From a virus: DNA of 32,863 nucleotides. Below, piece by piece: positions 6,888-18,055 of the stretch. Numbering within the stretch: the first letter of the stretch is position 1; each line of letters starts with the position of its first letter. The stretch is from positions 1 to 32,863 of IMG/VR virus record IMGVR_UViG_3300030098_002658; one strand, written 5' to 3'. The notes under the pieces are model-generated. The model had not been told where the DNA came from. It ran no database searches and worked only from the letters and a program-made list of their open reading frames with translations. A program made the translations under genes and the position numbers.

Positions 6888-6905
6888 ATGAAATAATACT
6901 TGCTT

Positions 6906-6937
6906 AGTGTTGACAATCTTCATAATTTGTCAACACT
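6906..6937. promoter_or_regulatory. Operator-like palindrome around a -10 element
   Basis: Arms AGTGTTGACAA (6906-6916) and TTGTCAACACT (6927-6937) are perfect inverted repeats of 11 bases separated by 10 bases. Each arm holds the self-complementary core TTGWCAA, and the arm centres are 21 bp apart, about two DNA turns. The gap contains CATAAT (6921-6926), five of six matches to a -10 box, so a protein bound to both arms would cover the promoter. The ATG of the first XRE gene begins two bases after the right arm. Confidence 0.75.
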
Positions 6938-6938
6938 T

Positions 6939-7127
6939 ATGAAGCATTTAACACAACATATGAGAGAGTGTGGTTATTCCCAAAATCAATTAGCGCGTGA
7001 GATTGCGCTGGATAAATCAATGCTCTCACTTATGATGCGTGGCAAGCGTAAGTTTCGTTATGAACATAAAGTCAGGATCGCCAGAGTTCTTGGCATCAAG
7101 ATGGAGTTTATCCAGTGGCCTTATTAA
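6939..7127 (+). CDS. Small XRE/Cro-type HTH regulator
   Basis: A 62-residue protein made almost entirely of one helix-turn-helix domain: 'GYSQNQLAREIALDKSMLSLMMRGKRKFRYEHKVRIARVLGI'. The frame is open to a TTG at 6900, but that would place the operator palindrome inside the gene; ATG 6939 is preferred. No SD precedes it, and a transcript from the CATAAT box would begin only about six bases upstream, so translation is probably near-leaderless, as for lambda cI from its maintenance promoter. The palindrome directly upstream suggests it controls its own synthesis (inference). Its size resembles Cro more than CI, since there is no oligomerisation or cleavage domain. Confidence 0.8.
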   Translation: MKHLTQHMRECGYSQNQLAREIALDKSMLSLMMRGKRKFRYEHKVRIARVLGIKMEFIQWPY

Positions 7128-7144
7128 AAAAAAGGAGAGAGAAA

Positions 7145-7594
7145 ATGCAAAGTGAAATACGTAATATTATAGATGATATAAAATCTAGAAGAAAAGAGTT
7201 AGGTATATCTCAAACTCAAATATCTAAAACAATAGGCATGACCACAAGAAGCCTTTCTAGATATGCAGATTGTAATTATTATTCTCAAGGAAACATACCA
7301 CTTAAATTAAAAAAACTTAGTCAAATTGCTGAATATTTAGGTTGTAATGTGCTAGTGCCAAATATAATTAACAAACAACATACTATTTTTGGAGAAAAAG
7401 TAGAGGATGTTAAGGGCATATTATTTAATAATAAATGGTATAAAAGCACTCATAGTAATGTTTTAGAATTTATTCACGATCCAATACGTGAAGAATACTT
7501 TTTTTCATTTTGGTTTAACGATAAGAATAGAATTGCTAACGCAGAAAGAATGTCGGGTAAAATTGAAATGATACAGGCGGTAGCAGTTGATTAA
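7145..7594 (+). CDS. Second HTH (XRE-like) regulator with C-terminal domain
   Basis: A 149-residue protein. ATG 7145 follows a strong purine-rich SD (AGGAGAGA, 7133-7140), so it is chosen over an in-frame upstream start at 7115. Residues of about 1-65 form an XRE-type HTH ('RRKELGISQTQISKTIGMTTRSLSRYADC' continuing to 'LSQIAEYLGCNVLVP'). The second half is an unassigned domain rich in aromatic residues ('NNKWYKSTHSNVLEFIHDPI', 'YFFSFWFNDKNR'). It lies 17 bases after the smaller regulator and is followed by the long hairpin at 7610-7681. It could be the real repressor or an early-gene activator; the sequence does not decide. No serine-lysine cleavage dyad was recognised. Confidence 0.72.
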   Translation: MQSEIRNIIDDIKSRRKELGISQTQISKTIGMTTRSLSRYADCNYYSQGNIPLKLKKLSQIAEYLGCNVLVPNIINKQHTIFGEKVEDVKGILFNNKWYKSTHSNVLEFIHDPIREEYFFSFWFNDKNRIANAERMSGKIEMIQAVAVD

Positions 7595-7609
7595 AATTTA
7601 TCATACAAA

Positions 7610-7681
7610 ATGGGCAGTGCTGATTGAAGTGACGTTCCACAACTACTCTCTCTCTCTCTTACGTCATTAGGTACTGCCCAT
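7610..7681 (+). promoter_or_regulatory. Long two-stem hairpin with CU-repeat loop burying a start codon
   Basis: The outer stem is ATGGGCAGT (7610-7618) with ACTGCCCAT (7673-7681), nine perfect pairs. The inner stem is TGACGT (7630-7635) with ACGTCA (7661-7666). The 25-base apical loop holds a (CT)7 run (7646-7659). The right outer arm includes the first two bases of the ATG at 7680, and a weak AGG site (7669-7671) lies in the internal loop. There is no T-run, so it is not a simple terminator. A translational switch or small RNA is suggested. Confidence 0.6.
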
Positions 7682-7898
7682 GCTCCTCACGATCCACATA
7701 CCAGATAATCAAGAAAGATATGAATTTGCACGAAAGGTGCAAAAATTATTGGGTGAATCCCAAACATACATTCCAGGTGCGCGAAAAGTCTATCAATCAG
7801 ACATCGGTGTAAAGGCAAGCATAGATGAATTTACTTATAATAAGGTAATTGCCTTGCTCGATCGCAGTGGATATAATTATAACATAAATAAGGAGTAA
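7680..7898 (+). CDS. Small early protein of unknown function
   Basis: A 72-residue, mixed-charge soluble protein with no motif I recognise. Its ATG lies in the descending arm of the long hairpin at 7610-7681, so its translation may depend on that structure opening. It starts with a short hydrophobic strand ('LLTIHIPDN') and ends 'YNYNINKE'. A start-proximal AAGGAG site serves the next gene, 2 bases downstream, which encodes an SSB-like protein; the two are probably co-transcribed. It may work with DNA replication because of that neighbour, but nothing in the sequence shows it. Confidence 0.6.
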   Translation: MLLTIHIPDNQERYEFARKVQKLLGESQTYIPGARKVYQSDIGVKASIDEFTYNKVIALLDRSGYNYNINKE

Positions 7899-7900
7899 GG

Positions 7901-8398
7901 ATGAGTGGATTAATAGAACCTACCTACGATGTGCCAAGCGCTGGTGAGAGTAGCTTCATGAAATTTGTCAAAGGCGAAAACAGATTCAGAATATTAGATA
8001 AGCCAATAATGGGTTATATATATTGGCAAGATGATCGTACGCCAGTTCGCATGAAAACAGCAGCAGAAGCACCCGCAGGTGAGAAGCCAAAACATTTTTG
8101 GCAAGTTCCTGTCTGGTCTGGTAGTCAAGTGAAGATATTAGACATTACACAGGCTACTGTGCAGAAGCAGTTAACAGAGTTGGATCGCAACTCTGAATGG
8201 GGTAACCTTACTGAATATGATGTGATCGTTACACGAAGTGGTGATTCATTAGATACTACTTACACTATTACACCATGTCCAAAATCGCCAGTTACTGATG
8301 AAATAAAAGATGCATATGCAGATTTTAAAAAAACCCATGAACCTGATAAGGTTTTTGAGAGTACGTCTACAGCAGAAGAAGAAGACCTACCGTTCTGA
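7901..8398 (+). CDS. Single-stranded DNA-binding protein (SSB-like)
   Basis: A 165-residue protein with ATG 7901 after an AAGGAG site. A beta-rich body ('FMKFVKGENRFRILDKPIMGYIYW', 'KHFWQVPVWSG', 'KILDITQATVQKQLTEL', 'YDVIVTRSGD') is followed by an acidic tail ending EEEDLPF. The tail matches the SSB C-terminal tip (acidic residues then a hydrophobic-Pro-Phe end), which in bacterial SSBs and phage gp32/gp2.5 recruits replication partners. It lies at the head of a rightward operon of nucleases and a primase-helicase. The OB-fold is inferred and not shown by a signature. The stop TGA overlaps the next start (TGATG). Confidence 0.78.
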   Translation: MSGLIEPTYDVPSAGESSFMKFVKGENRFRILDKPIMGYIYWQDDRTPVRMKTAAEAPAGEKPKHFWQVPVWSGSQVKILDITQATVQKQLTELDRNSEWGNLTEYDVIVTRSGDSLDTTYTITPCPKSPVTDEIKDAYADFKKTHEPDKVFESTSTAEEEDLPF

Positions 8399-8790
8399 TG
8401 CCTTCTTCCGCATCCCGAAAAGGCTATAAAGGTGAAGTCGAGGTCGTTGAATTGCTCCGCGACCTTGGCTTCATAGCCGAACGTAGTTGGGGTAGCGATG
8501 GTCGTAGTTTTGGTGAGAAAAGTGACATAGATGTCAAGGCTACGAAAGGTGACTTAACTATTAGAGTTCAAGTCAAGCGTAGAAAAAAGATTGCAGGATT
8601 TTTAGATTTTAAGAATGCGGACGTAGTGATGGTCCGCCAAGATAGAAAGCCTTGGCTATGGATAGCCAGGCATGAGTGGATGAAGCGTTTATTTACAAGC
8701 GGGGTCGTAGAAACCCATGAACCAGAAAATGGCGTGTCTAATGATCGTGATAGTCATGACCCCGCGAAATTATCAGGAGAGAGAAAATGA
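8398..8790 (+). CDS. PD-(D/E)XK nuclease, Holliday-junction-resolvase-like
   Basis: A 130-residue protein with the layout of archaeal/phage Hjc-type resolvases: '[22 protein letters not shown]' gives the helix with a catalytic Glu (E13 or E15), '[15 protein letters not shown]' supplies Asp (D43/D45), and '[10 protein letters not shown]' gives the Q-x-K motif (Q58, K60). A basic surface follows. Such enzymes cut branched DNA made during replication and recombination, and would clear junctions before packaging. The last 35 residues ('[18 protein letters not shown]') look unstructured. It overlaps its upstream neighbour by one base and its downstream neighbour by four. A restriction-type or VRR-type nuclease is the alternative. 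Confidence 0.75.
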
Positions 8791-8975
8791 TTAATGAAGC
8801 TACAAAACAGCATAGTGGTGCATTTATTAGGAAGATTGGTGGATGGGGTAAATATTATCAATTCCTAAAATCACAAAAAACAATACGAAGATCTGCGCCC
8901 AAAATAGGTCGCAATGATCCTTGTCCATGTGATAGTGGTAAAAAGAATAAAAAGTGTTGTAAGGTAACTAATTAG
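8787..8975 (+). CDS. Small SEC-C motif (zinc knuckle) protein
   Basis: A 62-residue protein whose end is a textbook SEC-C motif, '[18 protein letters not shown]': Cys-x-Cys then Cys-Cys (the second ligand pair is C-C here rather than C-H). In SecA and many small proteins this binds zinc and mediates contacts with other proteins or nucleic acid. The N-terminal half is basic and aromatic ('[14 protein letters not shown]'). ATG 8787 overlaps the upstream stop and follows an AGGAGAGA SD. Its job in the phage is unknown; sitting beside a resolvase-like nuclease, it might be an accessory factor. Confidence 0.75.
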
Positions 8976-8977
8976 AA

Positions 8978-9151
8978 ATGCCATATCCAATGAAAAAAGA
9001 TCCTAAGGCAGTAATGGTAGCAATAGTAAGTAAATGCATGAATAAAGCTTTGAAAAAGGTGCTTGTGAGCGAGGATTTAAGATTAGACATATGCATGGAT
9101 GCCTGTGATGAAATATTAAGAATAATAAATAAAAAAGGAGAGAAAGAATGA
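8978..9151 (+). CDS. Small helical early protein
   Basis: A 57-residue frame, ATG 8978 to TGA 9149-9151, which fills the gap between the SEC-C gene and the adenine methyltransferase. Its stop overlaps the next ATG by four bases (ATGA), the same coupling seen at neighbouring genes, which supports it being real. The product is helical with four cysteines or near-cysteine positions ('[14 protein letters not shown]', '[13 protein letters not shown]'). No function is recognised. The SD of the methyltransferase (AAGGAGAG) lies within its last codons. It lacks a strong SD of its own. Confidence 0.55.
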
Positions 9152-15477: not shown

Positions 15478-15492
15478 CGCGTGCAAAGAAAA

Positions 15493-15614
15493 CGCAGAAT
15501 ATGCAGAATATGAAGAATTTCAAATTCTGCCATGCAGTAGAAAAAGAGAATTTGAGAAACTGGAGTTATAGAGGAGAGAGAGAGAGATATTCTTCAAATT
15601 CTTCAAATTCTGCG
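15493..15614. repeat. Nested inverted and direct repeats (candidate origin, part 1)
   Basis: An imperfect 26-base inverted repeat (15493-15518 with 15589-15614, three mismatches) has arms built of 9-base tandem units: GCAGAATAT twice on the left and ATTCTTCAA twice on the right. TTCAAATTCT occurs three times (15519, 15593, 15602), and CAAATTCT (15521-15528) pairs with AGAATTTG (15547-15554). A purine run, (GA)7, lies at 15574-15587. It directly follows the primase-helicase gene. Confidence 0.8.
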
Positions 15615-15628
15615 TCTGAGGTACTCTA

Positions 15629-17347: not shown

Positions 17348-18055
17348 TTAGTTAACTACGAAACCGCTCTCATCATTTTTCGCGAGGCCTTTTGCGATTA
17401 AACCTACACAAGATTGTTGAGGATCTAAGAATCTTAAATCGTGCTTATCACCATCAACGACTGTTAAACCTAAATATTTTTTAGGTAGTTTGGACCTAAA
17501 AACCGCGCTAATATTTAGACCATTTTCTATCGCTTTATAAGTTTCCTTTTGATTCGCCTCCGCTCGCGAAAATGTTAAATGATAATTATCAGGTAGGTTT
17601 TTACGATTATGCAATTTGGTATAATCATAAAATTGTATCTCGTTAAAATACTTCATGATATTAAATGATTTATGATTATTTTCAAATCGCAAATCGCTTG
17701 TCCCATTTAGTCTAAATACTGGTGTCAAATCACGTTTTTTTGCCCATCTGATCCCGCTCTTGATTTCTTTTGTTAATTGTTCAAAGAATCGATCACGATC
17801 ATTAAAATATAATAACGTACGATTTAACCGCGCTTCATGGATAGGATTAATTTTATTATTTTTTCTTATCCATAGCGCGCGACCGCTTACGTTTAAACAT
17901 GATGCAATGCAGCCAGGCGTAGCGCCTGGACACGTATTATATCCGCTTAATTTATGCGGAGCAAGATACATTATGAAATTGGCATATCCATAATACATGC
18001 TCTTATTGGTTTTTGTTGATCCGTGCGGGTATGTTAATAATTTAATCTCTCTCAT
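17348..18055 (-). CDS. GP88 / DUF7227-like cysteine-motif protein
   Basis: A 235-residue protein of a family I know from mycobacteriophage gene 88 and many phages and plasmids. The marks are 'GYNTCPGATPGCIASCLNVSGRA' (C42, C49, C53), 'EARLNRTLLYFNDRDRFFEQLTKEI', 'VFRLNGTSDLRFE', 'IQFYDYTKL', 'NYHLTFSRAEANQ' and 'VVDGDKHDLRFLDP'. The cysteines suggest a metal or iron-sulfur site; the biochemical role is not established to my knowledge. ATG 18055 follows AGAGAGG. It heads the larger genes of a leftward operon whose first genes are two tiny membrane proteins. The family-level match is fairly sure, the function unknown. Confidence 0.75.
   Translation of the reverse strand: MREIKLLTYPHGSTKTNKSMYYGYANFIMYLAPHKLSGYNTCPGATPGCIASCLNVSGRALWIRKNNKINPIHEARLNRTLLYFNDRDRFFEQLTKEIKSGIRWAKKRDLTPVFRLNGTSDLRFENNHKSFNIMKYFNEIQFYDYTKLHNRKNLPDNYHLTFSRAEANQKETYKAIENGLNISAVFRSKLPKKYLGLTVVDGDKHDLRFLDPQQSCVGLIAKGLAKNDESGFVVN

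Follow-up and report, generated by a model that had tools for sequence, protein, structure and literature searches.

The early transcript of a family of uncultured marine phages contains a long RNA hairpin that has stayed at a single place in the early operon through deep divergence and for a very long time, with matching changes in its two arms. In the stretch of viral DNA analyzed here (32,863 nucleotides of IMG/VR record IMGVR_UViG_3300030098_002658; hereafter the window), the hairpin occupies positions 7610 to 7681 of the + strand and its base reaches into the start codon of ORF72 (7680-7898, + strand), a gene for a 72-amino-acid protein of no known family. The hairpin is a real conserved RNA and apparently an undescribed one: no Rfam family reached the gathering threshold in the window, a single chance match (E 4.4) was returned for positions 7560-7760, and no description of it was found in the literature searched. 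From its structure, strand, conservation and place at the start codon, we infer both that it represses and how it may be opened. Our preferred reading, held with moderate confidence, is that it is a cis-acting element of the early operon's sense transcript and closes the ORF72 translation start, such that ORF72 would not be translated independently.

Structure and conservation of the hairpin

Nucleotides 7610-7618 (ATGGGCAGT) are fully complementary to nucleotides 7673-7681 (ACTGCCCAT). In the minimum free energy (MFE) fold of the RNA, this match is part of an outer stem of 12 pairs, G-U pairs counted, between 7610-7621 (AUGGGCAGUGCU; compensatory changes at columns 13-19 of alignment A1) and 7670-7681 (GGUACUGCCCAU). 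A 7 x 2 asymmetric internal loop, with its 5' side at 7622-7628, leads to an inner stem of seven pairs between 7629-7635 (GUGACGU) and 7661-7667 (ACGUCAU), four of which have changed on both sides among relatives. The inner stem closes a 25-nucleotide terminal loop (7636-7660) that is nearly devoid of G and contains CCACAACUA followed by (CU)7 at 7646-7659. An earlier note made from the letters of this DNA had described stems of nine and six perfect pairs around a 25-base loop with (CT)7; the loop and its repeat are as described and both stems fold, if in a slightly longer form. The MFE of -26.1 kcal/mol compares with a mean of -16.1 kcal/mol for shuffled sequences (z = -3.4), one shuffle in 200 being equally good.

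The 3' arm extends into the ATG at 7680-7682. The first two bases of this codon lie in the arm in the window, as the earlier note had stated, but relatives usually pair the A only (the pair involving the A is present in 29 of 31 relatives and the next one in 18 of 31). AGG at 7669-7671, the candidate Shine-Dalgarno (SD) sequence of ORF72, is located 8 nt 5' of the ATG and half inside the outer stem; its place is taken by other letters in L056 and L057. On the 5' side, a 15-nt leader (7595-7609, + strand) separates the stem from the stop codon of the upstream gene (7592-7594). That the hairpin is coding sequence was ruled out, as close relatives change frame in the loop.

Relatives were collected via the downstream gene for a single-strand DNA-binding protein (SSB), which yielded 62 loci from IMG/VR. 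In a first alignment of 31 distinct sequences, 95.6% of the cells are paired and 11 of 19 pairs are compensatory, with a total of 62 compensatory cells; none of 500 shuffles matched the paired percentage or the covariation score, the pairing signal was lost upon sliding the partner columns by one to three positions, and RNAalifold, unprompted, recovered the same structure. A second alignment, of 17 remote sequences, is 98.6% paired with 8 of 13 pairs compensatory; its structure was drawn from one member, a choice that works in favor of the paired percentage without affecting the two-sided changes. Both stems thus stay paired in the relatives, the opposite of the unpaired changes that the earlier note had named as counting against the hairpin, and an inverted repeat conserved with such compensatory changes is far beyond chance. 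Inverted repeats near regulator genes may also be double-stranded DNA palindromes, serving as protein operators or forming cruciforms. A DNA site would, however, be symmetric, whereas G-U pairs far exceed A-C mismatches in the two alignments (73 and 37 against 3 and 0, or 110 against 3). The folding molecule is therefore the sense-strand (+) RNA; the DNA reading is largely refuted by this asymmetry and we give it almost no credence.

A distant-mode search for (CU)n loops in named phages with this region gave only short unrelated matches. In Flavobacterium and Cellulophaga phages the SSB homologue was the sole shared feature, and their upstream DNA was left out of folding. A search of genome contigs with the SSB alignment returned two contigs.

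Position of the hairpin at the ORF72 start codon

A profile search for the ORF72 family identified 252 loci, of which 64 had enough upstream DNA after duplicate removal. All 64 distinct loci carry a hairpin of -20 to -38 kcal/mol with its base at or near the ORF72 start codon (-3 to +2 nt from it in 61 loci, +6 to +8 nt in the other three), and in each of them a stable stem covers or adjoins the start or ribosome-binding site (RBS), as is typical of the start-codon-sequestering class of hairpins. The SD of ORF72 is weak or buried. Across clades, the sequence, the loop and the upstream gene vary; the geometry relative to the start codon is constant.

Clades differ in where the upstream stop codon is placed. 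In most remote loci the upstream frame enters the stem and its stop codon ends 3-24 nt within it, whereas nearly all members of the window's clade, despite differing in their upstream gene, have a stop that ends 11-20 nt 5' of the stem (15 nt in the window). In one member of this clade, L042, the stop position reads -2, perhaps owing to a spurious reading frame.

Two further features of the 5' flank were observed. In L207, L214, L215 and others, a single stem pairs the UAG stop of the upstream gene with a CUA immediately 5' of the GUG start of the next gene. Many remote loci (L206, L207, L199, L201, L287 and others) display a GCUCCGCA motif a few bases 5' of the stem, the counterpart of which in the window is the 15-nt leader. 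Because this motif is coding in some clades and lies 3' of the stop codon in others, it is probably a nucleic-acid signal.

A stem of -26 kcal/mol running into a start codon should block independent initiation. Given that the place of the hairpin at the start codon is conserved, we argue that gating is its purpose: covering the ORF72 start, the outer stem would keep the gene off until opened. The proposal in the earlier note that the RNA holds back its own gene thus finds indirect support in a conserved sense RNA whose stem sits at the start codon throughout the family, repression itself being what we infer. Remote relatives have the upstream stop within the stem, so that a ribosome completing translation of the upstream gene may unfold it and thereby allow ORF72 to start, which would couple the two genes translationally. 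With the stop beyond the expected footprint of the ribosome in the window's clade, opening there probably needs another step, which could be the binding of a protein to the pyrimidine-rich loop, cleavage by RNase III or re-initiation across the hairpin. Related clades differ in whether the upstream stop falls within the stem; a translation gate at ORF72, if true, would therefore be a natural system, strongly conserved, in which the contributions of unfolding and of re-initiation to translational coupling could be told apart.

The closest parallel to this arrangement is found in f1, where a hairpin between genes VII and IX ends just 5' of gene IX, shifting the upstream stop away abolishes coupling, and opening of the hairpin by the ribosome has been proposed (reviewed in PMC12548453). 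As in f1 and with other RBS-sequestering hairpins, the long hairpin described here ends just 5' of the downstream start, where a ribosome translating the upstream gene could open it. In contrast to the f1 hairpin, a single structure is maintained by covariation across very divergent phages, and its loop, G-poor and about 25 nt long, is conserved; the window's clade has its upstream stop ahead of the stem, and the coupling proposed here is a putative one.

The gate may not be the whole role of the hairpin, because two contigs without ORF72, L144 and L222, keep it. In both, the upstream gene overlaps the hairpin and no start codon follows; their stems are paired and differ from one another solely by wobble-compatible changes. 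These two contigs would be better explained if the hairpin were an operator, a processing site or an antitermination signal. In addition, the conservation of loop sequence within clades is more than gating alone needs.

ORF72, its neighbors and other possible roles of the hairpin

The gene upstream of the hairpin in the window is an accessory HTH gene (7145-7594) that is missing in many relatives and whose SD is GGAGAGAGA; ORF72 is followed by the SSB gene (7901-8398; PHROG 1607 match) and by a gene encoding a Hjc/RusA-like Holliday junction resolvase (8398-8790), all on the + strand. The ORF72 protein had no match in Pfam or PHROG. Its AlphaFold2 model, built with 36 sequences, adopts a beta-alpha-beta-beta-alpha-beta, ferredoxin-like fold (pLDDT 86.6), and the best matches to this model in the PDB have Z scores of at most 6, among them ribosomal proteins S6 and S10 (Z 5-6). 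Structure comparison revealed only the common ferredoxin-like arrangement, and the likeness of the predicted structure to S6 and S10 proves nothing, the fold being too common.

Phage ssDNA-binding proteins and ribosomal proteins repress their own mRNAs. The hairpin might by analogy be a protein-binding operator, whose clamped-open, G-poor pyrimidine loop would be bound by SSB or the ORF72 protein to repress the operon, a reading that we find unlikely. Its merits are a long loop that is G-poor and pyrimidine-rich in every clade, a hairpin that is always located after the regulator genes and before SSB, even in L144 and L222, where ORF72 is lacking, and the resemblance of the ORF72 model to S6 and S10. 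Z scores of 5-6 are, however, uninformative for a ferredoxin-like fold, and SSB autoregulation is known from other phages only. The hairpin is like the translational operators of T4 gp32 and S6 in that it heads an SSB-containing operon whose first gene product has an S6/S10-like predicted fold, but it has no sequence relation to them.

The location of the hairpin, after Cro-like/HTH genes and before replication genes, resembles that of nut and put sites, and a stem of this length and irregularity, interrupted by an asymmetric internal loop, is of the kind suited to RNase III. An element for mRNA processing or transcription at the head of the early operon, whether an RNase III site or a put/nut-like antitermination signal, would also account for the retention of the hairpin in L144 and L222. 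Neither role needs a stem that ends at the start codon, as in the 64 loci, or a conserved G-poor loop, and we consider such an element rather improbable. RNase III processing hairpins are found between the early genes of T7, and the present hairpin shares with them an intergenic location close to where the next gene starts and an irregular stem that contains an internal loop; unlike them, it has a conserved loop sequence and a fixed distance to the start codon. The putRNA of HK022 is likewise a structured element near the beginning of an early phage transcript, but its 73 nt form two stem-loops and a triplex (PMC9378689) and its effect is on RNA polymerase, whereas the fold and both alignments reported here contain one stem-loop, tied to a start codon.

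Two other structured elements were noted in this region. A second, GC-rich hairpin lies 5' of the SSB gene, between ORF72 (or its place) and SSB, in most remote clades (L056, L061, L142/L201, L206, L208, L211, L214, L215, L144 and L222) and is absent from the window's clade; an ACCACAA motif is often present 3' of it. The start of the Cro-like gene in the window has an inverted repeat (6895-6948; AATACTTGCTTAGTGTTGACAA / TTGTCAACACTTATGAAGCATT) that includes a TTGACA box and is likely to be a repressor operator or promoter.

The CU-rich loop and its purine-rich counterparts

A (CU)n loop is present in 39 of 68 distinct loci, all from one clade; the loops of other clades are of the UCUAUCCU or ACYACAACUA type, also pyrimidine. 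In the window, the loop is complementary to the SDs of the genes starting at 7145 (GGAGAGAGA, 7134-7142), 8787 (GGAGAGAGA, 8776-8784) and 9148 (GGAGAGA, 9137-9143), all on the + strand, with duplex energies of -14.8, -14.8 and -12.9 kcal/mol, respectively. GGAGAGA sites stand 5' of each of these three ATGs, and the duplexes rank in the best 0.2-0.5% of 20-mers of the genome. The pairing is stronger than that of a typical 16S tail, which stood in for the tail of the host. The earlier note had rightly pointed to these three sites; it had also listed purine-rich SDs before the leftward genes, where only one GAGAGG-type site was seen, at 18055.

GGAG sites continue with AGA in 50 of 153 cases in the (CU)n clade versus 2 of 75 elsewhere. 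GGAGAGAGA occurs directly 3' of the resolvase gene in most members of this clade, even where the next gene differs, and genes inserted upstream bear it as well. The (GA)7 run reported in the earlier note is present on the + strand at 15574-15587, where it adjoins the right-hand one of the inverted, iteron-like arrays of 9-nt repeats found 3' of the primase gene (15492-15615, + strand). Among records long enough to be tested, 12 of 13 from the (CU)n clade (two of the 12 only with the contig read as circular) and 0 of 11 others have a same-strand GA run of at least 10 bases located 6-9 kb downstream; in the non-(CU)n clades, GGTAAAAAA-type arrays without a GA run lie at the same place.

The above complementarities could reflect pairing in trans or at long range between the (CU)n loop and two purine targets, the GGAGAGA sites in front of accessory early genes and, in the iteron-like element at the far end of the early operon, the (GA)5-7 run, an explanation that we regard as doubtful. 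The evidence in its favor comes from the energies of the duplexes, the excess of GGAG-AGA sites and the distribution of the GA run. But any CU run pairs with purine-rich SDs, and all three traits (loop, SD and GA run) mark one clade, such that they count statistically as one evolutionary event; the Fisher value of 5e-7 treats relatives as independent and is not a probability. Other clades are devoid of loop-complementary SDs, those of the AGGATAG type that would match UCUAUCCU-type loops not being used there, and pairing between loop and element outside the (CU)n clade reached the best 2% of segments in G015 only, being elsewhere no better than with random segments. Co-variation of loop and target outside the (CU)n clade was rejected on these grounds. 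The idea is coherent within the clade, where such a role is possible, and fails outside it. As for the suggestion of the earlier note that the RNA could pair in trans with several SDs, the complementarity within the (CU)n clade is stronger than claimed but amounts to a single coincidence at clade level, and such pairing is not conserved, 29 of the 68 loci having no (CU)n loop.

A variant of this explanation, in which we have equally little confidence, is that the hairpin of the (CU)n clade became a purine reader whose loop would pair with the GGAGAGA sites of interchangeable accessory genes and/or with (GA)n in the iteron-like element that lies 6-9 kb further along that strand and is possibly an origin. 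Were the loop to have partners, a single RNA loop would coordinate accessory phage genes; if it reads purines in this manner, the start of the early transcript would be linked to its end or to replication. A separate trans-acting small RNA with its own promoter and terminator is not indicated: in a consensus scan, promoter-like sites were no more frequent than expected by chance, and 7681 is not followed by a terminator.

We note that accessory genes of the early operon share the SD AGGAGAGAGA (window 8776-8975 and 7134-7594; L008, L043, L080), as though the SD belonged to a cassette that can be exchanged. The arrays at 15492-15615, which follow the primase/helicase gene, have arm sequences that vary among relatives with matching changes, and possibly correspond to a replication origin or to the end of the operon.
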